Position numbers and translations under genes: made by a program. From NCBI GenBank assembly GCA_021789095.1, contig JAJYJX010000014.1, positions 1 through 22,239 on the forward strand: a stretch of 22,239 nucleotides of DNA, read 5' to 3'. This document shows positions 4,330 through 21,186 of the stretch, one piece after another; position 1 is the first letter of the stretch; each line of letters begins with the position of its first letter. Origin of the DNA: a bacterium (GTDB taxonomy: Bacteria > JAMCPX01). Under the pieces are notes generated by a model. That model had not been told where the DNA came from. It worked only from the letters and a program-made list of their open reading frames with translations, and did no database searches.

Positions 4330-5436
4330 TTACTTAAGCATGCTTTTCAGTTGTTTTATCTCGGTTTTAATATCATCCGTTTTTCCGCCTAAAGCCATGG
4401 TCTGTTCATATTCAAATACAGAACTTTTAACAAGCCCGGCCTTTTGGTAGATTTTGGCAAGAAGAAGATGATAGTCAGGGTTTTTAGGATCAAGCGCAAT
4501 TGCTTCCTGACAGTACTGCTTGGCTTCTTTCAATGACTGGTTAAAATCATGCATGACCAGGGCAAGCTTGTAGTATACATGTTTTTTCTCATGAGCCATC
4601 TCTAAAGCGGACTTCAGGAAATCTATTGCATCCTGTGGTTTATTTAACTCTATGCTTATATCTGCCTTCTTTAACAATTCCTGGTGCCTTTCGACCTTCA
4701 TGTATTTTTCTGTTTCTTTCAATTTATCCATGTAGTCCTTCTCATAAGGGTTGTACGAGTTTGCAAGTTTGAAGTTCAGGTAAGCAGTTGCATAATTACT
4801 CTTCATGAACGCTTCCATACCAATCTTGTAGTATGTTCTCGCCTTTTTGACCCTTTCTCTTATCTGGTCAGTCATGGCGCTGTGTGCCGGTTCCTGCTTT
4901 GCTTGCTGCTGGGGTTTTATAACAGTGGTTTCAAATTTAGCTGAAGAAGATTGCTTTGCTGTTTCAGGTTCTTTCTTCGGGGCCTTGTTTTTAAGCGTTT
5001 CATAGGCCTGCTGAACCTTTTTATACAGATCTACCAGAAAATGCTTATCCTCGGCAGGCACTGATCTTGCATAGTAGCTGTCAGGATGGAACATCTTTGT
5101 CTTTTCAAAGTATGCCTGTTTAATCTGCTCCACGTTCGCATTTTCTGAAACACCGAGGATTGTATACAGATCTGCGTTCTCATAAGACATGTAAAGCTCT
5201 TTTATGGATTGTCCGCCCGATTTTGCCTGTTCTGTTTCTCTGTGCTGGATTTCGACTGCATCCATTTTGCTTAATTTCTCAAGGGTCTTGTTAACAGTAG
5301 CCAGACCAAAACCTGTTACTTTTGCTATTTCGTTTGCTGAAGTTTTGCCGTCAATAAGTGACAAAACAAGGCTTTCCTGTTCTGTTAGCCCCGGGAGGGT
5401 ATGTATATTTTTAATAAGCCTGGGTACGTAATTCAC
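4330..5436 (-). CDS. J-domain co-chaperone with N-terminal winged-helix-like and C-terminal TPR domains
   Basis: This 368-residue protein is the first gene of the operon. Residues ~1-65 form a small helical, winged-helix-like module (VLSLIDGKTSANEIAKVTGF). Residues ~88-150 are a J domain starting DLYTILGV, with the essential HPD tripeptide at 117-119, so it should stimulate Hsp70 ATPase. A Lys/Gln/Ser/Pro-rich linker covers ~151-190. Residues ~195-365 hold about four TPR units (YATAYLNFKLANSYNPYEKD; KPQDAIDFLKSALEM; LKEAKQYCQEAIALDPKNPD). No Gly/Phe region or zinc-finger domain is present, so this is a class C J protein and not DnaJ. The start is GTG at 5436; there is no Shine-Dalgarno and the promoter places the transcript start on this codon. 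Next in-frame Met is residue 58, inside the first module, so the GTG start is favoured. Confidence 0.9.
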   Translation of the reverse strand: MNYVPRLIKNIHTLPGLTEQESLVLSLIDGKTSANEIAKVTGFGLATVNKTLEKLSKMDAVEIQHRETEQAKSGGQSIKELYMSYENADLYTILGVSENANVEQIKQAYFEKTKMFHPDSYYARSVPAEDKHFLVDLYKKVQQAYETLKNKAPKKEPETAKQSSSAKFETTVIKPQQQAKQEPAHSAMTDQIRERVKKARTYYKIGMEAFMKSNYATAYLNFKLANSYNPYEKDYMDKLKETEKYMKVERHQELLKKADISIELNKPQDAIDFLKSALEMAHEKKHVYYKLALVMHDFNQSLKEAKQYCQEAIALDPKNPDYHLLLAKIYQKAGLVKSSVFEYEQTMALGGKTDDIKTEIKQLKSMLK

Positions 5437-5442
5437 AGCCTA

Positions 5443-5470
5443 TTTATAATAAGCTTATTATTTTTGTCAA
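5443..5470 (-). promoter_or_regulatory. sigma-70-type promoter of the J/Hsp70/TPR/pseudokinase operon
   Basis: Reading the minus strand, a consensus -35 TTGACA (5465-5470) is followed by a 16-bp spacer and -10 TATAAA (5443-5448). Counting 7 nt past the -10 box gives a start at about 5436, the G of the GTG codon, implying a leaderless mRNA. The -35 box coincides with the TGTCAAG that begins the adjacent IS relic. Confidence 0.75.
5446..5461. promoter_or_regulatory. perfect 16-bp palindrome, candidate operator
   Basis: ATAATAAGCTTATTAT is a perfect inverted repeat that fills most of the spacer and overlaps three bases of the -10 box of the chaperone operon promoter. A dimeric repressor bound here would block RNA polymerase. 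It is AT-rich, so chance is possible, but its symmetry and position make an operator plausible. Confidence 0.45.
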
Positions 5471-5485
5471 GGCGGCGAATCGAGT

Positions 5486-5537
5486 CATGTAAAATCTAAC
5501 CATAGGGGGTATCATCTTGCCATGTAAAAATCTAACC
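5486..5537 (+). repeat. left-end repeated motif pair of the IS relic
   Basis: Two direct copies, CATGTAAAATCTAACC (5486-5501) and CATGTAAAAATCTAACC (5521-5537), are separated by 19 nt containing TATCATCTTG. They mirror the pair at the right end and are probably transposase binding sites. Confidence 0.8.
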
Positions 5538-5595
5538 GAAAAGTACAGCTTCCAGTAAGGATGTTATAGCCTGCCTTTGATGAAGGAGGCAGGTT

Positions 5596-5832
5596 ATGGG
5601 GTTAGCATTTAATATGAAGTACATAGAAAAGGTTCATAATAGATACTTTACAGCTTCTAAGGCATCAAGGGGCAAGATCCTCGATGAATTGTGCGACGTG
5701 TGCAACTATAATAGGAAATATGCCATCTGGAAGTTACATCATTTCTCTTTACAAAAGCATGGCAAACGTCGTGTTAAAAAGAGGGGGGACGTAGGGGTCA
5801 CCCATTTTTCTTATTTTGTTGATTACTTTTAA
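5596..5832 (+). pseudogene. IS transposase, N-terminal fragment
   Basis: The ATG at 5596 follows a good AAGGAGG Shine-Dalgarno. The first ~65 residues are recognisable as the start of an integrase-core transposase: MKYIEKVHNRYFTASKASRG, KILDELCDVCNYNRKYAIWKL, then a basic stretch KRRVKKRG. After that the sequence turns into an unrelated tail (GDVGVTHFSYFVDYF) and stops. The helix-turn-helix part that should lead to the catalytic core is lost, so the gene cannot make an active enzyme. Confidence 0.75.
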
Positions 5833-5991
5833 GGATTATGTCTTAATGAGCAAAGTGGCGGCGGCCTCAGTCAAGTGAAAATAATCATATTGTTTATATA
5901 GTATTTTGGTAAAAAAGGGTGTGGTGCTCATCCTTTAAAGGAAACGATGGAGAAGAATGAATGGACACTTTAATAGAGATATAAAAAGGAC

Positions 5992-6225
5992 ATGCTCCTC
6001 ATCTACCGATGGCTTGTAACACAGGGAGCAAAGGGAGTGGGGGCGTCAGCCGTGATGTATGGACGAACCAAGCCCGGCACACTGTTAAGACATCATATTC
6101 CGGTAAAATGTGACCACTGGGATGTAAACAGTCCCGGATTTGTAGAAATAGACCTTGTGTCCCATTCCGGGGAATGTGCAACAGGCGAGTTTATTTATTC
6201 TCTCAATCTTATTTCAGCCCGCTAA
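5992..6225 (+). pseudogene. IS transposase, catalytic-core fragment
   Basis: Residues ~22-72 of this frame match the start of the rve/DDE core of the same transposase type: YGRTKPGTLLRHHIP, DHWDVNSPGFVEIDLVSHSG, then GEFIYSLNL. The first catalytic Asp is in VEIDLV (residue 54 of the frame). Homology ends at SLNL and a stop follows; the second Asp and the Glu are absent. The residues before YGRTKPG do not look native. The AT-rich 5833-5991 stretch between the two fragments holds several stops and no recognisable transposase sequence; it may be a nested insertion remnant. Confidence 0.75.
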
Positions 6226-6367
6226 GGTCACACAGAAGTCACCGCAGAACACAGAAAAGCTATCAGAAATTGAGAAACAGATTATTCATGCTATAACTGA
6301 AATCTTTGGTATAAACGTATATATCAGGAATAAGAAAGGAGAGCTTATTGCCCCAGACCATGGTTAG
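6226..6367 (+). pseudogene. possible transposase C-terminal remnant, other frame
   Basis: In a different frame from the catalytic fragment, the sequence reads PAKVTQKSPQNTEKLSEIEK and continues with ITEIFGINVYIRNKKGELIA to a TAG at 6365-6367. The stop lies inside the inner right-end motif (GGTTAGATTT), as expected for a transposase ending at the IS edge. I do not recognise the segment itself, so the assignment rests on position. Confidence 0.35.
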
Positions 6368-6414
6368 ATTTCTGTATGACAAGATGATACATGTTTCGGT
6401 TAGATTTTTACATG
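6362..6414 (-). repeat. right-end repeated motif pair of the IS relic
   Basis: On the minus strand the outer copy CATGTAAAAATCTAACC (6398-6414) is identical to the inner left copy. The inner copy CATACAGAAATCTAACC (6362-6378) has diverged. The 19-nt spacer again contains TATCATCTTG, so the two ends share one design. Confidence 0.8.
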
Positions 6415-6556
6415 GCTTGACAGGGGAGGAGAGAAAGTTTGGCTGTTTGGTGTGTAATTTTCAACGTCATGCCTGTGATGTTTTACGCAGTTAGATTCGC
6501 TTTAACGGGCTTAATAAAATCTTGCACATGTTTGCGGATGCTGCCGAAGCCTTCGT

Positions 6557-6585
6557 TTGACAAAAATAAATTATAATTATATATG
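6557..6585 (+). promoter_or_regulatory. promoter of the substrate-binding protein gene
   Basis: The -35 TTGACA (6557-6562), a 17-bp AT-rich spacer and -10 TATATG (6580-6585) predict a start near 6592, only 3 nt before the ATG. No Shine-Dalgarno is present. TATAAT at 6572-6577 is too close to the -35 to pair with it. The first 13 bases, TTGACAAAAATAA, are identical to the start of the chaperone-operon promoter. Confidence 0.6.
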
Positions 6586-6594
6586 TGTTAAACA

Positions 6595-7539
6595 ATGTTG
6601 ATAAGACATAAATTATTTTATAAAGTTATTGCTGTCATAACAACATTTGTTTTTGTTTCGTCCGCATGGGCAGTAGATGTTGCAATTATTAAAACACGTA
6701 ATCTTGCACCATACAACGAAGCTATAACCGGGTTTACCATTAACTGCAGCGCCATAAAAACAAAGGAATACGATATGGAGGAGAACCAGGCGCGCGGACA
6801 GGAGATTGCAGCACAGATCAACAATAGCAAACCCTCAGCCGTGCTTGCTGTAGGTGCCCCTGCAGCACAGATAGCAAAGCTGTATATAGATAAATCAATC
6901 CCGATCGTATTCATAATGGTCCAAAGCCCTGAGAAAGTGGGGCTGAATGATGTGGACAATATGACGGGCATATCCCTTAACATCCCTGTTCAAACACAGC
7001 TTCGCGCGTTGAAGGCGCTTGTTCCTGCTGTAACAAAGGTTGGTGTGATATACAATCCCAAGAATACGTCAAATGAGGTACGGGAAGGAATGACGATATC
7101 CAGCCAGCTCGGGTTCAGGCTCATAGCTGCAAAGGTGGATACACCCAATGACGTTACAAGGGCATTAAGGGCGTTCGCTGAAGGCATTGATGCCTACTGG
7201 ATGCTGTCCGATATAACGGTCATGCAGGCATTTGCAACAATCCTTAATTATACGAACGACAGGAAAATACCGTTTCTTGCATCGTCAAAGGTGATGGTTG
7301 ACAGAGGTGCGCTTGTTTCACTCGCACCGAACTATGCAAACATAGGCAACCAGGGCTGCAGTATTATAAATCAGGTAATAGGCGGTACAAAACCGTCCCA
7401 GCTGCCAATCTCACCCCCCAAGGGACTTGAACTTACGGTAAATCTTACTGCAGCCAAAACACTCGGTTTACAGAGCATTGCAACAAATGCCATGACGTTT
7501 GCGGCTACGGAAGGCTATAAGATCAGCATATCCCAGTAA
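6595..7539 (+). CDS. periplasmic ABC-transporter-type substrate-binding protein
   Basis: This is a 314-residue protein with a Sec signal: MLIRHKLFYK, a hydrophobic stretch, then SSAWA with likely cleavage before Val27. The mature part matches the ABC_sub_bind family (PF04392 type). It has a periplasmic-binding two-lobe pattern with VDVAIIKTRNLAPYNEAITGF, then PSAVLAVGAPAAQIAK, KSIPIVFIMVQSPEKVGL, NMTGISLNIPVQTQLRALK, KVGVIYNPKNTSNEV, RKIPFLASSKVMVDRGALVS and ANIGNQGCSIINQVIGG. Members bind small solutes (some bind tryptophan or tyrosine), but the ligand here cannot be read. No permease or ATPase gene is adjacent, so it is an orphan component. The ATG start lacks a Shine-Dalgarno and is predicted to be near-leaderless. 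Phosphohexomutase follows after 28 bp, perhaps on the same transcript. Confidence 0.85.
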   Translation: MLIRHKLFYKVIAVITTFVFVSSAWAVDVAIIKTRNLAPYNEAITGFTINCSAIKTKEYDMEENQARGQEIAAQINNSKPSAVLAVGAPAAQIAKLYIDKSIPIVFIMVQSPEKVGLNDVDNMTGISLNIPVQTQLRALKALVPAVTKVGVIYNPKNTSNEVREGMTISSQLGFRLIAAKVDTPNDVTRALRAFAEGIDAYWMLSDITVMQAFATILNYTNDRKIPFLASSKVMVDRGALVSLAPNYANIGNQGCSIINQVIGGTKPSQLPISPPKGLELTVNLTAAKTLGLQSIATNAMTFAATEGYKISISQ

Positions 7540-7567
7540 AACTTAACCCGGTAAAATTTAACGTACA

Positions 7568-8989
7568 GTGGAAAAAATAATTAAATTTGGAACGTCAGGC
7601 TTCAGAGGCATTATTGCGGATTCGTTTAACTTTAAGACACTCGATTCAACAATCCATGCAATAGCTGATTATGTAAAAGCATATGCGAAAAACAGCCCTC
7701 CAATGCTGATGGTTGGGTACGATCCCAGGTTTATGGGCGAGGTATTTGCAAAAAGGGCAGCCGAAGTGCTTAATACGCATGGTATAGATGTACTGCTGAC
7801 AGACAGGGACACGCCCACGCCTGTTATATCCTTTTACGTTATAAAGCACGGTCTTGATGGTGCAGTAAATATTACTGCCAGTCATAATCCGCCGACATAC
7901 ACGGGCATAAAGTTTACCCCTTCCTGGGGGGGACCTGCAATGCCCGAGGAAACAAAGGAAATAGAATCTCTTGCTAACCAGTACCTGGATGAAGCCAGCC
8001 TGTTTAAGCAGGCAGAAGAAAAGCAGGGCAAAACAGAGATTACAGACCCAATGCCTGAATATATTGATGACCTCAATGACAGGATAGATTTTAAGGCGAT
8101 TGCAAAGGCCAATCTTAAAGTAGCTATAGATCCGCTTTATGGTGCCGGGAGGGGCTACCTTAAATCTATATGCGAGATACACGGTATAAAGCATGTGTGC
8201 CTGCATGAATCAAGGGATCCGTACTTCGGAGGCGCTGCTCCGGATCCAAATGAAATCAATCTTTCCGAATTGAGAGAGCTTATGGCAAAAGATGAAACCA
8301 TCTCAATCGGCATGGCGACAGATGGTGACGCGGACAGGTTCGGTATTGTAGACAGGAAAGGCAGGTTTATAATACCCGATTATGTGCTTGCTGTTTTGTC
8401 CGAGTATGTACTTACAACAAGGGATTTTGATGGCGGACTCGGCAGGTCCATTGCAACGACACACCTTATGGACAGGATAGCGCGCCAGCATAAAAGGGAG
8501 GTTTATGAAACGCCTGTTGGATTCAAGTATATCGGTAAGCTTCTTACAGAGGGAAAGATAGTGTTTGGCGGGGAGGAAAGCGGCGGACTTTCCATCATAG
8601 GACATGTACCGGAAAAAGACGGGATCATTGCGGGACTACTTGTACTTGAAGCAGTTGCAAGGACTAATAAATCAGTCGGCTTTCTGCTGGAAGATATATA
8701 TAAGATGGTCGGTACTCTGTACGCTGATCGAAGAGACGTTAATCTTGACGGGCAAAGCCTTGCAAGGGCGAATGAACTTATGAACAGCCCCTCAAAGCTT
8801 ATTGACAGATTCAAGCCGCTCAGCCTCGATAAAACCGACGGGGTAAAGCTTATGCTTGAAGGCGGGTCATGGATCCTGTTAAGATTATCAGGGACAGAGC
8901 AGGTTATGAGGATCTATGCGGAAGGCAGGCAGCACGCAGAGACAGAACAGTATATATCGATGGTTCTGGGTATGTTGGAACATGCTTAA
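7568..8989 (+). CDS. phosphoglucomutase/phosphomannomutase (alpha-D-phosphohexomutase)
   Basis: The protein has 473 residues with all four family signatures: the start FGTSGFRGI; the phosphoserine loop TASHNPP with Ser105; the Mg loop TDGDADRFG (Asp252, Asp254, Asp256); the sugar-binding loop GEESGG at 335-340; and the phosphate-binding loop LRLSGTEQVMRIYAE near the C-terminus. It interconverts hexose 1- and 6-phosphates through a bisphosphate intermediate in the cytoplasm. Whether glucose, mannose or both is preferred cannot be told from the motifs. The start is GTG at 7568, without a strong Shine-Dalgarno; no upstream ATG fits and the N-terminal motif begins at residue 7. The gene overlaps the following hydrolase by 8 bp. 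It may feed sugar phosphates to the glucan enzyme further along, which is inference. Confidence 0.92.
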   Translation: MEKIIKFGTSGFRGIIADSFNFKTLDSTIHAIADYVKAYAKNSPPMLMVGYDPRFMGEVFAKRAAEVLNTHGIDVLLTDRDTPTPVISFYVIKHGLDGAVNITASHNPPTYTGIKFTPSWGGPAMPEETKEIESLANQYLDEASLFKQAEEKQGKTEITDPMPEYIDDLNDRIDFKAIAKANLKVAIDPLYGAGRGYLKSICEIHGIKHVCLHESRDPYFGGAAPDPNEINLSELRELMAKDETISIGMATDGDADRFGIVDRKGRFIIPDYVLAVLSEYVLTTRDFDGGLGRSIATTHLMDRIARQHKREVYETPVGFKYIGKLLTEGKIVFGGEESGGLSIIGHVPEKDGIIAGLLVLEAVARTNKSVGFLLEDIYKMVGTLYADRRDVNLDGQSLARANELMNSPSKLIDRFKPLSLDKTDGVKLMLEGGSWILLRLSGTEQVMRIYAEGRQHAETEQYISMVLGMLEHA

Positions 8990-9632
8990 TATAAAATCTA
9001 TTGTTGTAGGGCCTCTATGGGTCAACAGCTATATCGTGTGGGACAGCGACACCGGTGAAGGTATACTGGTAGACCCGGGTGATGAAGGTAAAAAGTTGAT
9101 AAACATAATAAAAAAGAATACTATAAACATAAGGAGCATTATTATAACACACGGACATTTTGATCATATCAAAGATGCGGATTATGTCAGCACTGCTATA
9201 AAAGCGCCTGTGCTCCTCCACAGGGCAGAGCTGCCTTTTATCGAGCATGTTGCGGAGCAATCCATCATGTTTGGTTTCCCGCCTGTCAAGCCTCCGCATA
9301 TAGATAGTTACCTTGAAGAGGGGGATCATATAAATATCGGTGCCTTCAGTTTTGATGTACATCATACGCCTGGCCATTCTCCGGGCAGTATAATACTGCA
9401 CAGCAGGTCCGAGGGCATAGCCATTGTAGGTGATCTTATTTTTTATGAATCCGTAGGCAGGACGGATCTTCCCGGCGGCGATTACGAAACGCTGCTGATG
9501 AGCATAAGGAACCGCATCCTCAGTCTGCCCGATGATACCAGGATACTGTCAGGACATGGTGAGGAGACGACCGTGGGACATGAGAAGGTTTATAATCCGT
9601 TTATAACGGGTGTTTACAGGGATGAAGGTTGA
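8982..9632 (+). CDS. metallo-beta-lactamase-fold hydrolase, glyoxalase II-like
   Basis: The protein has 216 residues, with metal ligands HGHFDH at 57-62, His in HHTPGHSPGS, Asp in AIVGDLIF, and His in ILSGHGEETT. The compact size and the layout resemble the YcbL/GloB-type hydrolases, which cleave thioesters such as hydroxyacylglutathione. The substrate is unknown. I chose ATG 8982, which overlaps the end of the mutase gene by 8 bp, because residues from MLNIKSIVVGPLWVNSYIV onward match the family start. An in-frame upstream ATG at 8916 would add 22 residues unrelated to the fold. The gene overlaps coaBC by 11 bp, so the three genes are probably translated from one mRNA. Confidence 0.88.
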   Translation: MLNIKSIVVGPLWVNSYIVWDSDTGEGILVDPGDEGKKLINIIKKNTINIRSIIITHGHFDHIKDADYVSTAIKAPVLLHRAELPFIEHVAEQSIMFGFPPVKPPHIDSYLEEGDHINIGAFSFDVHHTPGHSPGSIILHSRSEGIAIVGDLIFYESVGRTDLPGGDYETLLMSIRNRILSLPDDTRILSGHGEETTVGHEKVYNPFITGVYRDEG

Positions 9633-10827
9633 AAACAAAAACATACTTGTCGGAGTGACAGGGGGCATAGCAGCGTACAAGGCGCTGGAGCTTGTCAGGC
9701 TGCTGGTAAAGGAAAACGCCGTTGTGAACGTTGTCATGACGGCTCATGCAGAGCGGTTTGTAGGAAGGCTTTCTTTCCAGACCCTTTCTGGCAACCCGGT
9801 ACTTACAGACACATTTGATCTTGCATCCGGCGCCGAGATAAAACATATATCCATACCGGATAATGCAGACATTGCGGTTATCGCACCTGCCACGGCAAAT
9901 TTTATCGGGAAGGTTGCACACGGCATAGCGGATGATATGCTTACAACGATGATGCTTGCCATAACAAAGCCTATTCTTATTGCACCATCAATGAACGTAC
10001 ACATGTATGGGAACAGGATTGTCCAGGATAACATGGATAAACTCAAACAGTATGGATATCATTTCATTGAGCCGGGCGAAGGCTGGCTCGCGTGCGGCTA
10101 CGAGGGCAAGGGCAGGCTTGCAGAGCCGGAACAGATCCTTGAGGAGATAGTGCGTTTGCTCTCAAAGAAGGACCTCGCGGGCAAGAACATTCTTGTGACA
10201 GCAGGCCCGACAAGGGAACATCTTGATCCGGTAAGATTTATATCCAATCCGTCGTCCGGCAAAATGGGCTATGCAATCGCAATGTCCGCATGGATGAGGG
10301 GTGCGCATGTTACACTTATTTCGGGCAAGGTGAACATAAAGCCGCCTTACGGCGTTGACTTCATAGAGGTTGAATCGGCAAGGCAGATGCTTGAGCATGT
10401 TAGCGGCATGTTCAAGAACATGGACGCAATTATCATGGCAAGTGCGGTGTCCGATTTCACACCGTCAAAGACAAGCCCCCAGAAGATAAAAAAGACTGCG
10501 GAATACCTTGATATGCGCCTTGAACGGACTACGGATATCCTGTCACATATAGCAAAGGACAAAGGGGGAAGACTGATCATCGGGTTTGCCGCTGAAACGG
10601 AGAACGTGGAACAGTATGCGAGGGAGAAGCTGAAGCAGAAGAACATGGATATGATTGTCGCGAACAACGTGACTGAAAAGGGCAGCGGTTTCGGCGTCGA
10701 TACGAACAAGGCCTTGATTCTCTATAAAGACGGGACCATCGAAGAACTCCCCCTGATGCAAAAGTCCGTACTTGCAGACGTGATACTGGACAGGGTCGTG
10801 TCCATGCTTGCCCGTCAGACGGGGTGA
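9622..10827 (+). CDS. coaBC: bifunctional phosphopantothenoylcysteine decarboxylase / phosphopantothenate-cysteine ligase
   Basis: This 401-residue enzyme carries two consecutive steps of coenzyme A synthesis. The N-terminal CoaC half (~1-185) is an FMN protein with GVTGGIAAYKA, the catalytic H75 (IKHISIPD), the PSMNVHMY clamp with N125, and C158 in the flap ACGYEGKGRLAE; these match E. coli numbering. The C-terminal CoaB half (~186-401) has AGPTREHLDPVRFISNPSSG, a KIKK lysine motif and GFAAET, binding CTP and making the cysteine amide. I place the start at ATG 9622, inside the upstream hydrolase gene, because the family begins a few residues before ILVGVTGG; an in-frame GTG at 9610 is possible. 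CoA supports the acyl-carrier and fatty-acid genes later in the window. Confidence 0.95.
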   Translation: MKVENKNILVGVTGGIAAYKALELVRLLVKENAVVNVVMTAHAERFVGRLSFQTLSGNPVLTDTFDLASGAEIKHISIPDNADIAVIAPATANFIGKVAHGIADDMLTTMMLAITKPILIAPSMNVHMYGNRIVQDNMDKLKQYGYHFIEPGEGWLACGYEGKGRLAEPEQILEEIVRLLSKKDLAGKNILVTAGPTREHLDPVRFISNPSSGKMGYAIAMSAWMRGAHVTLISGKVNIKPPYGVDFIEVESARQMLEHVSGMFKNMDAIIMASAVSDFTPSKTSPQKIKKTAEYLDMRLERTTDILSHIAKDKGGRLIIGFAAETENVEQYAREKLKQKNMDMIVANNVTEKGSGFGVDTNKALILYKDGTIEELPLMQKSVLADVILDRVVSMLARQTG

Positions 10828-10847
10828 AAAGTTTTTTTCTTTACCCC
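10821..10847 (+). terminator. weak hairpin at the end of coaBC
   Basis: GGGGTGAA (10821-10828) can pair with TTTACCCC (10840-10847), including one G-T pair, around an 11-nt T-rich loop. It overlaps the stop codon and has no downstream T-tract, so it is only a possible transcript end. The following stretch to 11037 holds a response-regulator remnant and no intact gene. Confidence 0.25.
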
Positions 10848-10937
10848 TTAACTCTTGAACCCTTAAACTCTTATGTTTGCTCATTTCGCCAATTCTCTTT
10901 ATTGCACAGACCATGATTGTATGATAGTTCTTTCATA

Positions 10938-11057
10938 ATGGCTGACAAAAACCGCATACATGTTGCCATTCTTCATCCTCATACTCTTTTCAGAGAAAGC
11001 GTCAAAACATTATTAGAACGCGATAATGAATCCCCTGTTGACTCTTTTTCATTATAG
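10938..11057 (+). pseudogene. truncated response-regulator receiver remnant
   Basis: A 39-codon frame starts at ATG 10938 and contains VAILHPHTLFRESVKTLLERD. This closely follows the N-terminus of NarL/FixJ-type receivers (pattern: hydrophobic strand, D-D-H, then LFREGL...LLE), but the acidic pair that binds Mg is replaced by His-Pro. The frame ends at TAG 11055-11057, inside the rnpB promoter. No receiver core or HTH follows. There is no Shine-Dalgarno. I read it as the leftover of a deleted regulator gene, though a short coincidental match cannot be excluded. Confidence 0.4.
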
Positions 11058-11065
11058 GTTAAAAT
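11038..11065 (+). promoter_or_regulatory. rnpB promoter
   Basis: The -35 TTGACT (11038-11043), a 16-bp spacer and -10 TAAAAT (11060-11065) put the start 7 nt on, at 11072. That is precisely the first base of RNase P helix P1, which independently supports both calls. Confidence 0.8.
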
Positions 11066-11071
11066 AAGCAT

Positions 11072-11437
11072 GATCAGGATAATGGATGGCTGCTCTGCTT
11101 GCCTTCGCGGGTACTGCAGGGAGGAAAGTCCGGACTTCAAAGGGCAGGATGGTCGCTAACGGCGACTGTGGCGCAAATCGCGCCACAAGGAAAGTGCAAC
11201 AGAAAGTAAACCGTGGCGCCTTTGGCGCCATAAGGGTGAAACGGTGAGGTAAGAGCTTACCAGTGCCATGCGTGAGCGTGGCAGCTATGTAAACCCCATC
11301 CGAAGCAAGGCCGAATAAGCAGGCGGCTGAGGATTGCCCGTCCAATGCCTGCGGGTCGGCTGCTTGAGGCTGTCAGCAATGCCGGTCCCAGATAAATAGC
11401 CATAAAGAACAGAATCCGGCTTACGGTTATCCTGGTC
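11072..11437 (+). ncRNA. rnpB: RNase P RNA (M1 RNA), bacterial type A
   Basis: This is the catalytic RNA that trims the 5' leaders of pre-tRNAs. The universal core is visible: GGAGGAAAGTCCGGACT near the 5' end, ACAGAAAGTAAACC in the middle, and AGAATCCGGCTTACGG near the 3' end. Helix P1 is formed by GATCAGGATAA (11072-11082) with TTATCCTGGTC (11427-11437), with one G-U pair, so the ends are well defined at ~366 nt. Internal hairpins such as GTGGCGC...GCGCCAC and GGTAAGAGCTTACC fit the P12- and P9-type stems. T-rich sequence (ATTTTCTTTC) right after P1 probably ends transcription. Several antisense open frames here are incidental. Confidence 0.96.
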
Positions 11438-11478
11438 ATTTTCTTTCTTGCTGATGATAAACTCAAAAAGTTTTTGGC

Positions 11479-11835
11479 TCAGACCTGCTTGATATCCTGA
11501 TTTTCTATGAAATTAAGCAGTTTGCCGCGGTATATATCACTGAGCTCTTCAAATTCTATGCCTATAGCTATGTTTGAGTTGCTGTCGGCATGTGGAATTA
11601 TAGTATTAGACCAGATGACCCTGCCCTTGGTGATAATGGGTTCGGTTTCACCCGGGATGTGAAGATGAAGATCCACAATAGTACCTTTCATGATTGCAAC
11701 GGTTGATTCAACCCCTACACCGTCAACGCATATATCCCTTGTAAAGTCGGAGAAGAATATGCCCTCAGTTTTACAGTGTACCCTGATTTTGGTTTTTACC
11801 CTTTTGTTCCTGCGGGTGTTTCTTCGTGATTTCAT
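11479..11835 (-). CDS. PilZ-domain protein (probable c-di-GMP receptor, divergent motif)
   Basis: This 118-residue protein is a single PilZ domain. It has the N-terminal basic stretch RRNTRRNKR that supplies the RxxxR motif, a barrel with DICVDGVGVE, then GRVIWSN and GIEFEELSD. The second c-di-GMP motif is usually (D/N)xSxxG; here the Ser position is Cys (DICVDG), so binding may be weakened or altered. Such small PilZ proteins sense c-di-GMP and act on motility, polysaccharide or pilus functions. The nearest partner in the window is the HD-GYP phosphodiesterase at 13166-14779, transcribed the other way. The gene is monocistronic and convergent with rnpB. Its promoter predicts a 3-nt leader, and no clear Shine-Dalgarno precedes the ATG. 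Confidence 0.85.
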   Translation of the reverse strand: MKSRRNTRRNKRVKTKIRVHCKTEGIFFSDFTRDICVDGVGVESTVAIMKGTIVDLHLHIPGETEPIITKGRVIWSNTIIPHADSNSNIAIGIEFEELSDIYRGKLLNFIENQDIKQV

Positions 11836-11844
11836 ATATCTTTA

Positions 11845-11873
11845 TTTATAAAATAGATTTAAAGTTTTTGCAA
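11845..11873 (-). promoter_or_regulatory. promoter of the PilZ gene
   Basis: On the minus strand, -35 TTGCAA (11868-11873), a 17-bp spacer and -10 TATAAA (11845-11850) predict a start near 11838, 3 nt before the ATG. This is the same near-leaderless geometry as at the substrate-binding protein gene. Confidence 0.65.
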
Positions 11874-11936
11874 ATTAAATCTTCGCAGCAATACTTTGGC
11901 CCTGTAAAACGCTAAACAGGATAGATTTCATTGCTG

Positions 11937-11965
11937 TTGCAATTTTCAGGGTAAAGATGTATTGC
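11937..11965 (+). promoter_or_regulatory. possible promoter of the TPR/CNB gene
   Basis: TTGCAA (11937-11942), 17 bp, then TATTGC (11960-11965) is the best pairing I find before the gene at 11997, but the -10 is weak. TATAGT at 11971-11976 is a better -10 but lacks a matching -35. This gene has a Shine-Dalgarno (GAGGGG, 11982-11987), so it would have a normal leader. Confidence 0.25.
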
Positions 11966-11996
11966 AGGGTTATAGTACATAGAGGGGATTATCAGT

Positions 11997-13169
11997 ATGC
12001 TTGACAGAAACAAGATCAAAAAAGATGCAGAGCATTACCTTATAGATGGCAGCTATGAAAAGGCCATAGAAGAGCTGGTCAAACTTTCCGTAATAGAAAC
12101 GAATGACCCGTGGGTCTGGAGTTCTCTTGCAGAATGCTATTCAAACACAAATGAAGCTCAGAAGGCCGCAAAAAACTTCATGACGGCATACAAGAAGTTC
12201 CTGCAGCAGAATGATTTACAGGCAGCACTATCAGCTCTGGAACGTGTAGTATCGGTCGATCCTGCAAACAAAGAGGCAGAAGAAGAAAGAAACAAACTGC
12301 TGAAAAGGCTTTCAAGGGGGGAAAGCAAGCCTGTTGGGGGGGGTGTCAAAAAGATACCCATTTTCTCGGAGATAGAGGAGCAGGAATTGAACGCTATACT
12401 CAAGATCGCAAAAAACCTTACGTTCCCCCAGGATTCAACAATAATAAAGGAGGGCAGTAAAGGCGATTCTATTTATTTTATCATATCCGGCATAGTAAGT
12501 GTTTCCAAAAAAGACAAGGGCGGCAAAGATGTCATGCTTGATACGCTTTCGGACGGTGATTTCTTCGGGGAATTCGGGTTTTTTACAGGCGGCAGACGGC
12601 AGGCCACTGTCGTATCTGCAAGTTCAGTGGATCTTTACGAATTCAAAAAACAGGACATGGAGGATGTTGCACAGAAACACCCGAATGTGTCAAAGGTCCT
12701 GGTTGAATTCTACAAGAAAAGGATCCTTGACAACATAATTGCACTTACACCGGTTTTCAGCAGCCTTAACTACAGTGAAAGGTCGGATATCATAAACAGG
12801 TTTGAGCTTATGGTCGTTGAGCCGGACAAGGTTATAATAAAAGAAGGAGATCCCGGCGATGCCATGTATGTGGTCAAGGACGGGCTGCTGCGGGTAAGTA
12901 CAAAGGACAGCAAGGGCAAAGAGGTCGTACTGGCGCAGCTCGGGGAAGGCGACATTTTTGGAGAGGTCGCCTTGTTCACAGGCAAACCCAGGACCGCGAC
13001 TGTAAAGACTCTGAAACAGAGCAGGTTGATGAAGCTTAAAAAAGATGATTTTCAGGATATTGTCGATAAATACGAGTCTGTAAAATCAAGGGTATTTAAG
13101 ACAATAGATGAAAGGGCTGAGGATACGGTCAGGCATTTGTTTTCACAGGACAAAAAAGGCCATAAATGA
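11997..13169 (+). CDS. TPR protein with tandem cyclic-nucleotide-binding (CNB) domains
   Basis: This is a 390-residue cytoplasmic protein. Residues ~8-95 hold two to three TPR-like repeats (YEKAIEELVKLSVIETND; SSLAECYSNTNEAQKAAKNF; AALSALERVVSVDPANKEA). Two CNB domains follow, ~122-240 and ~252-370. Each has a phosphate-binding cassette: FGEFGFFTGGRRQATV (E192, R200/R201) and FGEVALFTGKPRTATV (E323, R332). The second is close to the textbook cAMP-type pattern; the first is slightly divergent. There is no DNA-binding domain, so it is not a CRP-type regulator. The layout recalls a regulatory subunit that docks partners through TPRs. The gene overlaps the HD-GYP gene by ATGA, suggesting a joint complex or pathway linking cyclic mononucleotide sensing to c-di-GMP turnover. 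The ligand is not proven. Confidence 0.88.
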   Translation: MLDRNKIKKDAEHYLIDGSYEKAIEELVKLSVIETNDPWVWSSLAECYSNTNEAQKAAKNFMTAYKKFLQQNDLQAALSALERVVSVDPANKEAEEERNKLLKRLSRGESKPVGGGVKKIPIFSEIEEQELNAILKIAKNLTFPQDSTIIKEGSKGDSIYFIISGIVSVSKKDKGGKDVMLDTLSDGDFFGEFGFFTGGRRQATVVSASSVDLYEFKKQDMEDVAQKHPNVSKVLVEFYKKRILDNIIALTPVFSSLNYSERSDIINRFELMVVEPDKVIIKEGDPGDAMYVVKDGLLRVSTKDSKGKEVVLAQLGEGDIFGEVALFTGKPRTATVKTLKQSRLMKLKKDDFQDIVDKYESVKSRVFKTIDERAEDTVRHLFSQDKKGHK

Positions 13170-14779
13170 CTGTACAACAGTCCAAGAGCAGGGCAAAAGA
13201 GCTTATATTCCTGAAAAAGTTGCTGTCGATATACGGCGATTTGCCCAGACAGAGGATCAACACAGGTATTATAAATAAACTGTATAACGAGCTTCTCGGT
13301 CTCATAACGGGAGAACTCGCATGTGATGCAGGCAGTTTGTTTGTTATAGACAGAGAAACCGGCTCTCCTGTTTTTACCGCTGTCAAAGGAGGGGATGAAA
13401 GTCTTGTAGGCAAAAAACTTGAAAAAGGAAAAGGGATTGTCGGGAAGGTAGCGGATACAGGAGCAGGATACCTTGCAAAGGATGCGTCAAAGGATCCGGT
13501 ATGGATGGGGGAGGTCAGTTCGGGCAAGGGATTTGCGACAACCGATATAATGGCATGCCCCATAAAGTACGGTAACGATGTTATAGGGGTTATAGAAGTC
13601 TTGAATAAGAAAAAGGGCATGTTCAACAGGCAGGATATGAAAAGGCTTTTGCAGTTGTCCCCGCATATATCCGTATTCATGAAGTATCTTATAGACGAGC
13701 TTGAGCAGCAGAGGTTTATTAATATGCAGACGAGGCTGTATGAGCTGTCAATGCTGCTTAATTCCAACCTTGACACAAAGGCTATTGTCACGAATGCAAT
13801 AAAGGCAATTGTTTCACTTGTACATGCGGATGTAGGGTCGCTCCTGCTGGTAGACAAGGAAAAACAGGAGCTGTTCTTTGAAGTTGCACTCGGTGACAGC
13901 GAGAAGGTATTAAAGGAGATGCGCCTGAAGTTCGGTCAGGGCATAGCTGGCTGGGTTGCACAGCAGAAAAAGCCCCTTGTTGTTAATGATACATCAAAGG
14001 ATGAGAGGTTTTTCAAAAAGGCCGATCAGAAAACAGGGTTTGTGACGAAAAACATTCTCTGTGTGCCGGTGCTGTCAAAGGGAGAGGTGATTGGCGTAAT
14101 ACAGGCCATCAACAAAAGTGATGGACTGTTTACAAAGCGCGATCTTGAACTGCTGACATCGCTGGCTGATCAGGTCGCCATTGCACTTGAGAATGCATCC
14201 CTTCATGAAGAACTGAAAAGAACATTTCTCGAGGTCGTTGAATCTCTTGCAGAGGCTATTGAGAAAAGAGACCCGTACACAGGGGGACATACCAAGCGCG
14301 TTGTGAAGTATTCGCTTATGATCGCAGACCAGATGGGCATTGAAGGGGATGAAAGGGACAGGTTGAAGATGGCAGCACTGCTTCACGATGTAGGCAAAAT
14401 AGGCATTGATGATAGCATACTGAGAAAGCCTGCAATCCTTGATGATGCGGAGTTTGAAAAGATGAAGGAACATCCGTCCATAGGTGCCGACATACTCGGA
14501 AAGATTCCGCAGATCAAGAATATCATTCCAGGCATACTTTATCACCACGAGTGGTACAACGGCAGAGGTTATCCTGATGGGCTTTCAGGGCAGTCATTGC
14601 CTTTGGTTGCACGGATAATCTCCATAGCAGACACCTATGATGCAATGACAACGGACAGGCCTTACAGGAAAGCCCTGACACCAGAGTTTGCACTTGCAGA
14701 ACTGAAAAAATTTTCGGGCACGCAGTTCGATCCAGCATACGTGGAAGCATTTGTAAAAGCCTTTGAAAAACAGAAGTAG
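13166..14779 (+). CDS. GAF-GAF-HD-GYP cyclic-di-GMP phosphodiesterase
   Basis: This is a 537-residue cytoplasmic protein. GAF1 covers ~35-175 (CDAGSLFVIDRETG, KGKGIVGKVADTG, IMACPIKYGNDVIGVIEVLN), GAF2 covers ~190-345 (ADVGSLLLVD, FGQGIAGWVAQQ, ILCVPVLSKGEVIGVIQAIN), and the HD-GYP domain covers ~352-537. The HD-GYP core is complete: GGHTKRVVKYS, LLHDVGKIGI (H407-D408), HPSIGADIL, YHHEWYNGRGYPDGL (GYP at 468-470) and ADTYDAMTTDRPYR. This family degrades c-di-GMP with a metal centre. The GAF pair probably senses a small molecule or cyclic nucleotide, but their ligands cannot be read. The start ATG overlaps the stop of the TPR/CNB gene, so the two are translationally coupled. Confidence 0.93.
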   Translation: MTVQQSKSRAKELIFLKKLLSIYGDLPRQRINTGIINKLYNELLGLITGELACDAGSLFVIDRETGSPVFTAVKGGDESLVGKKLEKGKGIVGKVADTGAGYLAKDASKDPVWMGEVSSGKGFATTDIMACPIKYGNDVIGVIEVLNKKKGMFNRQDMKRLLQLSPHISVFMKYLIDELEQQRFINMQTRLYELSMLLNSNLDTKAIVTNAIKAIVSLVHADVGSLLLVDKEKQELFFEVALGDSEKVLKEMRLKFGQGIAGWVAQQKKPLVVNDTSKDERFFKKADQKTGFVTKNILCVPVLSKGEVIGVIQAINKSDGLFTKRDLELLTSLADQVAIALENASLHEELKRTFLEVVESLAEAIEKRDPYTGGHTKRVVKYSLMIADQMGIEGDERDRLKMAALLHDVGKIGIDDSILRKPAILDDAEFEKMKEHPSIGADILGKIPQIKNIIPGILYHHEWYNGRGYPDGLSGQSLPLVARIISIADTYDAMTTDRPYRKALTPEFALAELKKFSGTQFDPAYVEAFVKAFEKQK

Positions 14780-14812
14780 CCGTGATTCATAAGTTGCCTC
14801 TGCTACATGTGA

Positions 14813-14840
14813 TTGACATAAAATACAACGGTAATATAAT
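14813..14840 (+). promoter_or_regulatory. consensus promoter of the DUF4912-GH57 operon
   Basis: A perfect -35 TTGACA (14813-14818), a 16-bp spacer and a perfect -10 TATAAT (14835-14840) place the start at 14847, the A of the ATG. This is the clearest leaderless promoter in the window. The operon is thus transcribed independently of the HD-GYP gene that ends at 14779. Confidence 0.85.
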
Positions 14841-14846
14841 ATCAAT

Positions 14847-15509
14847 ATGAAGGGGAAAGACCTAAAAGCATTATCTATAATAGAACTGAGAAAACTCGCA
14901 AAACAACTGCACGTCAGCCTTAAGAGGACAATGACAAAACAGCAACTCGTTAAAGCCATTGTTGCATCCACAAGGTCAAGGGCCATATCTGCAACATTGA
15001 AGAAAAGGAAACAGCCTTCGGGCAAAATCCATCACCCTCCGGCAGCCGGCAGGCATGCTGCGCTTGGGCCGCGTTATGAAGAAATTCTTCCGGCTTACAG
15101 CGGGATAACGAAGCTTGTTTTGATGCCAAGGGACCCATGGTGGATATTCGCCTACTGGGAGATTGACAGGTCGCAGCTCGGCAAAAAGGATTTGATACTG
15201 AGGGTTTACAGGAAGGACAACCAGCTGTATGCCAGTATCAGTATCGGTGATGCAAACAACTGGTACATCAACTTACCGGAGCCAGGGGAAACAGCGAGAA
15301 GCGAGATTGGCTTTATAAGGGCTGACGGGGAATTCAAGGTTGTTGCGGTATCAAATACTGTAAGGACCCCGCGGGCATGGCCGTCGCATACAGGATATGA
15401 AGAAGCCATGCATGGTTTTTCGCATACAACCCCTTTTACGGAATCATATGAAGCCTTTGAAAAGTCTAATCCATACATCAGAGAAGATATAACATCCAGA
15501 AAGCGATGA
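14847..15509 (+). CDS. Rho-N-terminal/SAP-like plus DUF4912 protein
   Basis: The protein has 220 residues. Residues ~1-45 (LSIIELRKLAKQLHVSLKRT, then TKQQLVKAIVAS) match the small helical Rho N-terminal or SAP-type domain that binds nucleic acid. A basic linker follows, then DUF4912 at ~80-200, with the typical KLVLMPRDPWWIFAYWEI, LILRVY, NNWYINLPEPG and RSEIGFI. DUF4912 looks like a carbohydrate-binding or Ig-like fold by pattern. In several lineages DUF4912 genes sit beside GH57 glucan-branching genes, as here, where the two overlap by ATGA. It may be an accessory factor for glucan synthesis; the nucleic-acid-type N-terminus is unexplained. No Shine-Dalgarno is present and the mRNA is predicted to start at the ATG. 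Confidence 0.85.
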   Translation: MKGKDLKALSIIELRKLAKQLHVSLKRTMTKQQLVKAIVASTRSRAISATLKKRKQPSGKIHHPPAAGRHAALGPRYEEILPAYSGITKLVLMPRDPWWIFAYWEIDRSQLGKKDLILRVYRKDNQLYASISIGDANNWYINLPEPGETARSEIGFIRADGEFKVVAVSNTVRTPRAWPSHTGYEEAMHGFSHTTPFTESYEAFEKSNPYIREDITSRKR

Positions 15510-17434: not shown

Positions 17435-17967
17435 ATATTAGGGACATTCCAAAAGAAGGGGGAAGGGTCAATATCAGGAAGGACAGCGAATGGTTCATGA
17501 ACATGCTCGGTGATGCTGATATTGATATAGAATTCCTGAACGAAGAAATGACGGCAACGATTGATATTCACCTGCATCACGATAAGGCGGTTGTTATCGA
17601 AGGCGAACTGCATGCGGATGTGGTATTGCGGTGTGTAAAATGTCTTGAGTCGTTCCGCAACCTCATAAACAGGCATTTCAGTGTGACGCTCGAGCCTTAT
17701 GACGCATCGCTCACGACGAGGCACGCAGTAAGCATGGCCGAGCTCGATACCGAGGTTTATTTAAACGACGAGTTTGATCCTGATGCTGTTGTTTTTGAAC
17801 AGATTATGCTTAGCTTACCCATGTATCCCCTGTGCAGACATGACTGCAGGGGGCTTTGCCCTTACTGCGGCATTAATCTTAATGAAAACGCGGACCATAA
17901 ATGCAGGCAGCATGAAGAGGATAGCGCGCTCAGCAGACAATTAAGAAAGATTAAAAATAATTTATAA
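17431..17967 (+). CDS. yceD: YceD/DUF177 family protein
   Basis: This 178-residue protein sits directly before rpmF, the standard location of YceD/DUF177. It begins MNIRDIPKEGG as the family does. It has a first Cys pair (VLRCVKCLESF, C68 and C71) and a C-terminal cluster CRHDCRGLCPYCGINLN ending HKC, typical of the conserved C-terminal motif, which could bind a metal. DUF177 proteins are linked to ribosome assembly, with a reported role in 23S rRNA accumulation in plants and bacteria. The gene lies 10 bp before rpmF and likely starts the fatty-acid operon transcript. The start ATG has no strong Shine-Dalgarno; translation may depend on the overlapping small ORF. Confidence 0.9.
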   Translation: MNIRDIPKEGGRVNIRKDSEWFMNMLGDADIDIEFLNEEMTATIDIHLHHDKAVVIEGELHADVVLRCVKCLESFRNLINRHFSVTLEPYDASLTTRHAVSMAELDTEVYLNDEFDPDAVVFEQIMLSLPMYPLCRHDCRGLCPYCGINLNENADHKCRQHEEDSALSRQLRKIKNNL

Positions 17968-17977
17968 AGGAGTTAGC

Positions 17978-18160
17978 ATGGCACAGCCTAAGAGAAAACA
18001 TTCAAAATCAAGGACGAACAAGAGAAGGTCAGCCTACAAGTTGACAGCTCCGGCACTTGTTGCATGTCCGAGATGCCACCAGCTTATGAAACCGCATAAT
18101 GTATGCCCGACGTGCGGTTATTATAACGGCAAAGAAATAGTGGAGATTAAAGAAATATAA
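17978..18160 (+). CDS. rpmF: 50S ribosomal protein bL32
   Basis: This is a 60-residue basic protein. MAQPKRKHSKSRTNKRRS is the classical L32 N-terminus, and it has a zinc ribbon with C30, C33, C43 and C46, the form able to bind zinc. AAGGAG lies 8 nt before the ATG. The rpmF-plsX junction (5 bp) is a conserved link between ribosome and membrane-lipid genes in bacteria. Confidence 0.97.
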   Translation: MAQPKRKHSKSRTNKRRSAYKLTAPALVACPRCHQLMKPHNVCPTCGYYNGKEIVEIKEI

Positions 18161-20871: not shown

Positions 20872-20946
20872 GGCAGGGATAAAGGGAGAGAGACAGTTTA
20901 TGTGTAATAGTAATCATAAGTCAATTTAAATAAAGGAGGAACATGT

Positions 20947-21186
20947 ATGTCACTCGAAAAAAAGGTTAGAGAGATTATAGCCGACAGGTTAAAGCTTGAT
21001 GTGGATCAGGTCCAGCCAAATTCTAAATTTATAGAAGACCTTGGTGCAGATTCTCTGGATATAGTTGAGATGATCATGCAGATGGAGGAAGACTTCGGCA
21101 TAACAATACCCGATGAGGACGCAGAGAAGATAAAGACTGTAGGTGACGCTATAGCATATCTCAAATCACAGGGTGTGAATGAGTAA
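20947..21186 (+). CDS. acpP: acyl carrier protein
   Basis: This is a 79-residue, acidic, four-helix carrier protein. The phosphopantetheine attachment Ser is S36 in [10 protein letters not shown], followed by [20 protein letters not shown]. The strongest Shine-Dalgarno of the window, AAAGGAGG (20932-20939), lies 7 nt before the ATG and selects 20947 over the out-of-frame ATG at 20943, in line with the high expression of ACP. A 75-bp gap separates it from fabG. It overlaps fabF by 8 bp. Confidence 0.98.

Follow-up and report, generated by a model that had tools for sequence, protein, structure and literature searches.

Promoter placement predicts a leaderless gene class beside Shine-Dalgarno-led genes in an uncultured bacterial family

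Four genes within the window, by which we mean the whole 22,239-nt stretch of bacterial DNA analysed here, are very probably transcribed from ordinary sigma-70-type promoters set so that transcription begins at the start codon or within ~3 nt of it, and translated without a leader. They encode a J protein, an ABC transporter substrate-binding protein (SBP), a PilZ-domain protein and a DUF4912/Rho_N protein. In the mechanism that we propose, the promoter would place the transcription start on or next to the start codon, the resulting mRNA would have no 5' untranslated region, and translation, which must then start on the 5'-terminal ATG or GTG, would presumably, by analogy with other bacteria, proceed via direct binding of the 70S ribosome. 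Leaderless expression would constitute a stable minority mode, used by ~14% of operon-first genes in the family, and would coexist with a larger mode led by Shine-Dalgarno (SD) sites, in which promoters lie 12 or more nt further upstream.

Promoter geometry in the window

Each of the four starts is closely preceded by a -35/-10 pair. The J protein (4330-5436, minus strand), in which Pfam recognises a TrmB-like N terminus, a DnaJ domain and TPR, is the first gene of a four-gene operon with downstream gene gaps of 2, -4 and 2 nt; its GTG at 5436, predicted to be leaderless, follows TTGACA (5465-5470, read from the sequence), a 16-nt spacer, TATAAA (5443-5448; near-class posterior 0.97 in the family-wide model described below) and 6 nt, all on the minus strand. 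The SBP gene (6595-7539, plus strand; Pfam ABC_sub_bind) begins with an ATG at 6595, 9 nt beyond TATATG (6580-6585; posterior 0.91), which is itself separated by 17 nt from TTGACA (6557-6562, likewise read from the sequence). The arrangement recurs at the PilZ gene (11479-11835, minus strand; Pfam PilZ), where a -35-like TTGCAA (11868-11873, also read by inspection), 17 nt and TATAAA (11845-11850; posterior 0.97) end 9 nt before the ATG at 11835, and at the DUF4912/Rho_N gene (14847-15509, plus strand; Pfam), the first of two overlapping genes and predicted to be leaderless, where the promoter scan located TTGACA (14813-14818) and, after 16 nt, TATAAT (14835-14840), leaving 6 nt to the ATG at 14847. 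SBP and PilZ are predicted to be leaderless or near-leaderless: their 9-nt gaps make leaders of up to ~3 nt possible, and these may in fact be 0 nt, since the near class defined below covers gaps of 6-9 nt as a single block, approximating the range of start choice by the polymerase. RNA polymerase is able to pick its start base from among several positions beyond the -10 box.

These distances are read directly in the DNA, and from them we infer the 5' ends of the RNAs. The original prediction had placed the promoters 7-10 nt before the starts, a count that runs to the first base of the start codon; the geometry agrees, with 6, 9, 9 and 6 nt intervening at J, SBP, PilZ and DUF4912, respectively. 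Its leaders of 0, 3, 3 and 0 nt are reproduced if the seventh nucleotide after the -10 box is taken as the start site, and its statement that the four genes have no SD site holds, no SD core being present upstream of any of the four starts. Good SD sites were confirmed at the two contrast cases that it named, rpmF (AAAGGAG; 17966-17980, plus strand) and acpP (AAAGGAGG; 20932-20949, plus strand), both read from the sequence, the latter a first-type gene behind an upstream gap of 75 nt. In-frame stops lie 6 nt upstream of the J and SBP starts, 9 nt upstream of PilZ and 15 nt upstream of DUF4912, so none of the four starts can move upstream.

The choice of start base was calibrated on a structural RNA. 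The rnpB promoter found by the promoter scan (TTGACT-16-TAAAAT; 11038-11065, plus strand) precedes a class A RNase P RNA (11072-11439, plus strand; Rfam RF00010), whose P1 pairing is visible in the sequence; the G that opens P1 is nucleotide 11072, and the Rfam model (11074-11439) starts two bases later. Across seven genomes the order is the same, a -10 box, 6 nt, and then the G opening P1 (GATCAGG), the -10 box in two of the seven (L198 and L201) having been assigned from its spacing to the -35 box; the claim that this promoter points at the first base of P1 is thereby borne out. Assuming that the 5' end of the RNA is its transcription start, rnpB supports the seventh nucleotide after the -10 box as the start base.

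Scanning the window with a generic promoter consensus returned 37 sites against 35.6 expected, which is not above chance, and the DUF4912 site alone among the four passes its filter, the other three -10 boxes lacking the final T. The DUF4912 promoter is a perfect consensus, of which there are six in the whole 2.15-Mb genome. Consensus matching by itself proves nothing at these sites; position and conservation do. More generally, the last base of the -10 hexamer is A at a frequency of 0.43 and T at 0.46 whichever promoter class is considered (first genes of G000, G001 and G002); with the two bases about equally frequent, a TATAAA box is nothing unusual in this family, whereas in the E. coli hexamer the final T is strongly conserved.

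Conservation among orthologues

In all 24 J, SBP and DUF4912 sequences, a set drawn from genomes of the same family (three other genera) together with the window's own sequences, the element TTGA[CG] is found at a distance of 34-42 nt upstream of the conserved start, and an SD site is nearly always absent. For J, TTGACA is found 36-42 nt upstream of the start in seven orthologues; for SBP, the -35 element is kept at -36 to -41 in seven; and for DUF4912, TTGA[CG] stands at -34 to -40 in the seven orthologues with the start aligned, a set that omits a ninth, more distant orthologue (L018) whose alignment starts at residue 2. Two of the DUF4912 orthologues combine an element at -40 with AGGA close to the start, and these may have short leaders. 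The N termini of the orthologues are conserved from their first residues.

PilZ is a multi-copy family whose upstream geometry varies more among relatives than that of the other three genes, and for this reason its leaderless prediction is less secure than theirs. A TTGCAAA element recurs ahead of the start codons of many PilZ relatives, paralogues and orthologues alike (L107-L119), and may be a shared promoter or regulatory sequence. We considered reading the TTGCA motif as sigma-54-dependent and dropped the idea, its spacing to a -24 element being unsuitable as judged by eye.

The conserved divergent intergenic region between J and SBP contains, at 5480-6420 of the window, a decayed insertion element whose terminal inverted repeats measure 58-62 nt (5480-5541 and 6362-6420). 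It is present as a single copy in the window's genome, and its two short open reading frames match no Pfam family. In two relatives (G001 and G008) J and SBP are divergent and ~210 nt apart, with no insert. The element ends ~10 nt beyond the J -35 box, which leaves ~44 nt of ancestral DNA upstream of J, and the J core promoter is retained despite the insertion; we treat this as supporting evidence only, since a promoter could also come from within the element. Elsewhere in the window, intergenic DNA at 890-1080 looks repetitive and partly palindromic, with ATTCCGCACTTGATGCGGAAT and GATTCCCGCGGGAGTC... motifs (by eye and terminator scan).

Two classes of start across the family

A tally of the distance between -10 box and start codon, proposed alongside the original prediction, was run over three same-family genomes. 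Genes were called on ~1.66 Mb of stretches (580 kb from the window's genome, 680 kb from G001 and 400 kb from G002), the start of each being selected from its coding score and a prior on start codons, with upstream signals ignored. Expectation-maximisation was then used to fit a two-box promoter model to the 534 first genes, which were defined by an upstream gap cut-off of 70 nt, such that DUF4912, at 67 nt, goes uncounted. The model converged on TTGACA-17-TATAAW and revealed a near mode that an initial tally of -10 boxes alone had masked: 76 of the 534 first genes (14%, about one in seven; 15.7, 12.7 and 15.3% by genome) have a -10-to-start gap of 5-10 nt. Broken down by gap, this near class peaks with 31.7 at 6 nt and falls to 17.6 at 7, 14.4 at 8 and 8.4 at 9 nt, beyond which the gap density passes through a trough at 10-17 nt to a second mode at 18-34 nt. 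Near-class genes represent ~25% of first genes with a recognisable promoter, and ~5% of all called genes reach a near-class posterior of 0.5. Controls in which each column was shuffled among genes yielded 0.4-3.7 near-class genes, and internal genes yielded 6 of 586 at gaps of 5-10 nt. By the same two-box method the near-class share is 1% in E. coli and 20% on the plasmids of Deinococcus deserti, a known leaderless user. Exact TTGACA at -37 to -34 of first genes was observed 19 times where 3.3 were expected (P=3e-9).

It might be supposed that the near promoters represent nothing but chance matches or minor sites, the real promoters lying further upstream and giving long leaders that carry no SD, and the chance-level yield of the generic scan would suit such an account. 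It would, however, leave the positional excess across the family, the conservation across genera and the near-absence of SD sites all unexplained, and at J it would have to be accommodated within the ~44 nt of ancestral upstream DNA; we consider it very improbable.

Promoters placed close to the start codon go together with a distinct class of gene start. SD cores were found in 2 of 72 near-class genes, against 61 of 92 genes with gaps of 18-34 nt (P=5e-19), and near-class start codons comprise 70 ATG, 2 GTG and no TTG. The promoter geometry, its conservation, the two classes and this near-absence of SD sites are observed in the DNA itself, and from them we predict leaderless translation. The make-up of -35 box, -10 box and spacer is almost the same in the two classes, which indicates that one polymerase probably serves both, placement alone differing. 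In eight reciprocal-best orthologue pairs both members belong to the near class. A pyrimidine at -1 was considered as an initiator signature of the near class and rejected, as it occurs in 86% of near-class genes but also in 73% of SD-class genes.

Because start choice was computational, and the gene finder did misplace some starts (several apparent disagreements between orthologue pairs are such mis-calls, for example SBP in two relatives), one could instead propose that near-class start codons are misplaced, and that translation truly begins further downstream, after an SD site, with the promoter providing a leader of normal length. Against this, the N termini of orthologues are conserved as described above, and erroneous calls would not pile up so sharply at a gap of 6 nt. 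Further, Pfam domains open at residues 1-6 in near-class CoaE, Fmt, ArsA, AIR carboxylase, HPPK and a PilZ protein, and downstream starts preceded by an SD site show no excess in the near class (9/72 versus 22/196), so misplaced starts do not explain the class and we accord this proposal little credence.

The coexistence of leaderless and SD-led translation, which the original prediction had suspected from the window, appears well founded in light of the orthologue conservation and the family-wide statistics, and the 16S 3' tail in two relatives, where the anti-SD CCTCC is intact, is consistent with both modes. The accompanying generalisation, that an operon's first gene is leaderless and those after it are translationally coupled, does not survive. 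It fits the four genes, after which the following gene, where present, sits at a gap of -4 to 28 nt, and it fits the near-absence of near-class promoters before internal genes; yet only 13-16% of first genes (~14% overall) belong to the near class, SD cores occur in 36-43% of first genes and in 44-52% of internal genes, and within the window acpP is a counter-example. As a general rule it is most unlikely.

Among first genes of G000, G001 and G002, the SD-led leaders appear to be short (~12-28 nt), and a trough at ~4-11 nt separates them from the leaderless class. We tentatively raise the possibility, which we hold to be less likely than its converse, that these are two evolutionarily stable start classes between which leaders of ~4-11 nt are little used, with leaderless status inherited gene by gene and under selection. 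If so, ~4-11 nt would be too long for leaderless initiation and too short for an SD site, the genes inheriting leaderless status across genera would include coaE, J and SBP, and leaderless genes may be tied to conditions that favour 70S initiation.

Relation to known leaderless systems

Leaderless expression is well known in Actinobacteria, Deinococcus-Thermus and some delta-proteobacteria. The present results would extend a regular leaderless class to an uncultured lineage of phylum rank, represented by nine genomes of one family, all metagenome-assembled; our literature search found nothing on leaderless mRNA in genomes assembled from metagenomes. DNA alone suffices to recognise such a class once promoter position is considered jointly with conservation among orthologues and calibration against a structural RNA. 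A further consequence is that, in the genomes of this family, gene callers that rely on SD sites to choose start codons will get some of them wrong.

One close parallel is with the TA-led leaderless genes that Zheng et al. (2011; PMC3160421) surveyed across 953 bacterial genomes, with delta-proteobacteria at 8 of 33 genomes and a mean of 15.8% of genes. Like the near class, TA-led genes have a TANNNT-type -10 box ~10-12 bp upstream of the start and no SD site, and they are a minority of genes, chiefly operon-proximal (PMC3160421). Four traits of TA-led genes are observed in the present family: near -10 boxes above chance, the virtual lack of SD sites, restriction to operon-first or single genes, and ATG or GTG starts. 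Two more are predicted for it, translation from a 5'-terminal start codon and an RNA 5' end within ~5 nt of that codon, the latter with indirect support from the rnpB calibration. The survey (PMC3160421) drew on RefSeq genomes of 2010, whereas the present lineage is known here from metagenome-assembled genomes only.

Leaderless geometry has experimental support in Deinococcus-Thermus (PMC12340547) and in Mycobacterium (PMC3898074, PMC4633059). In Deinococcus-Thermus, as here, the -10 box lies ~6-7 bp before the open reading frame and leaderless mRNAs exist beside an SD class; there they account for ~30% of open reading frames, with a TANNNT motif to which the -35 box is an enhancer and not a rule (PMC12340547), whereas in the present family a strong TTGACA at 17 bp goes with the near class. 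In Mycobacterium, whose promoters have no -35 consensus, experimental mapping showed leaderless transcripts for approximately one in four genes that have a primary start; the leaderless state is often kept between species, and GTG serves as well as ATG (PMC3898074, PMC4633059). The class predicted here from DNA divides into 70 ATG and 2 GTG starts. What we describe is a known mode in a new lineage, to which are added the lineage itself, a clear two-mode placement of promoters, and conservation of that placement gene by gene.
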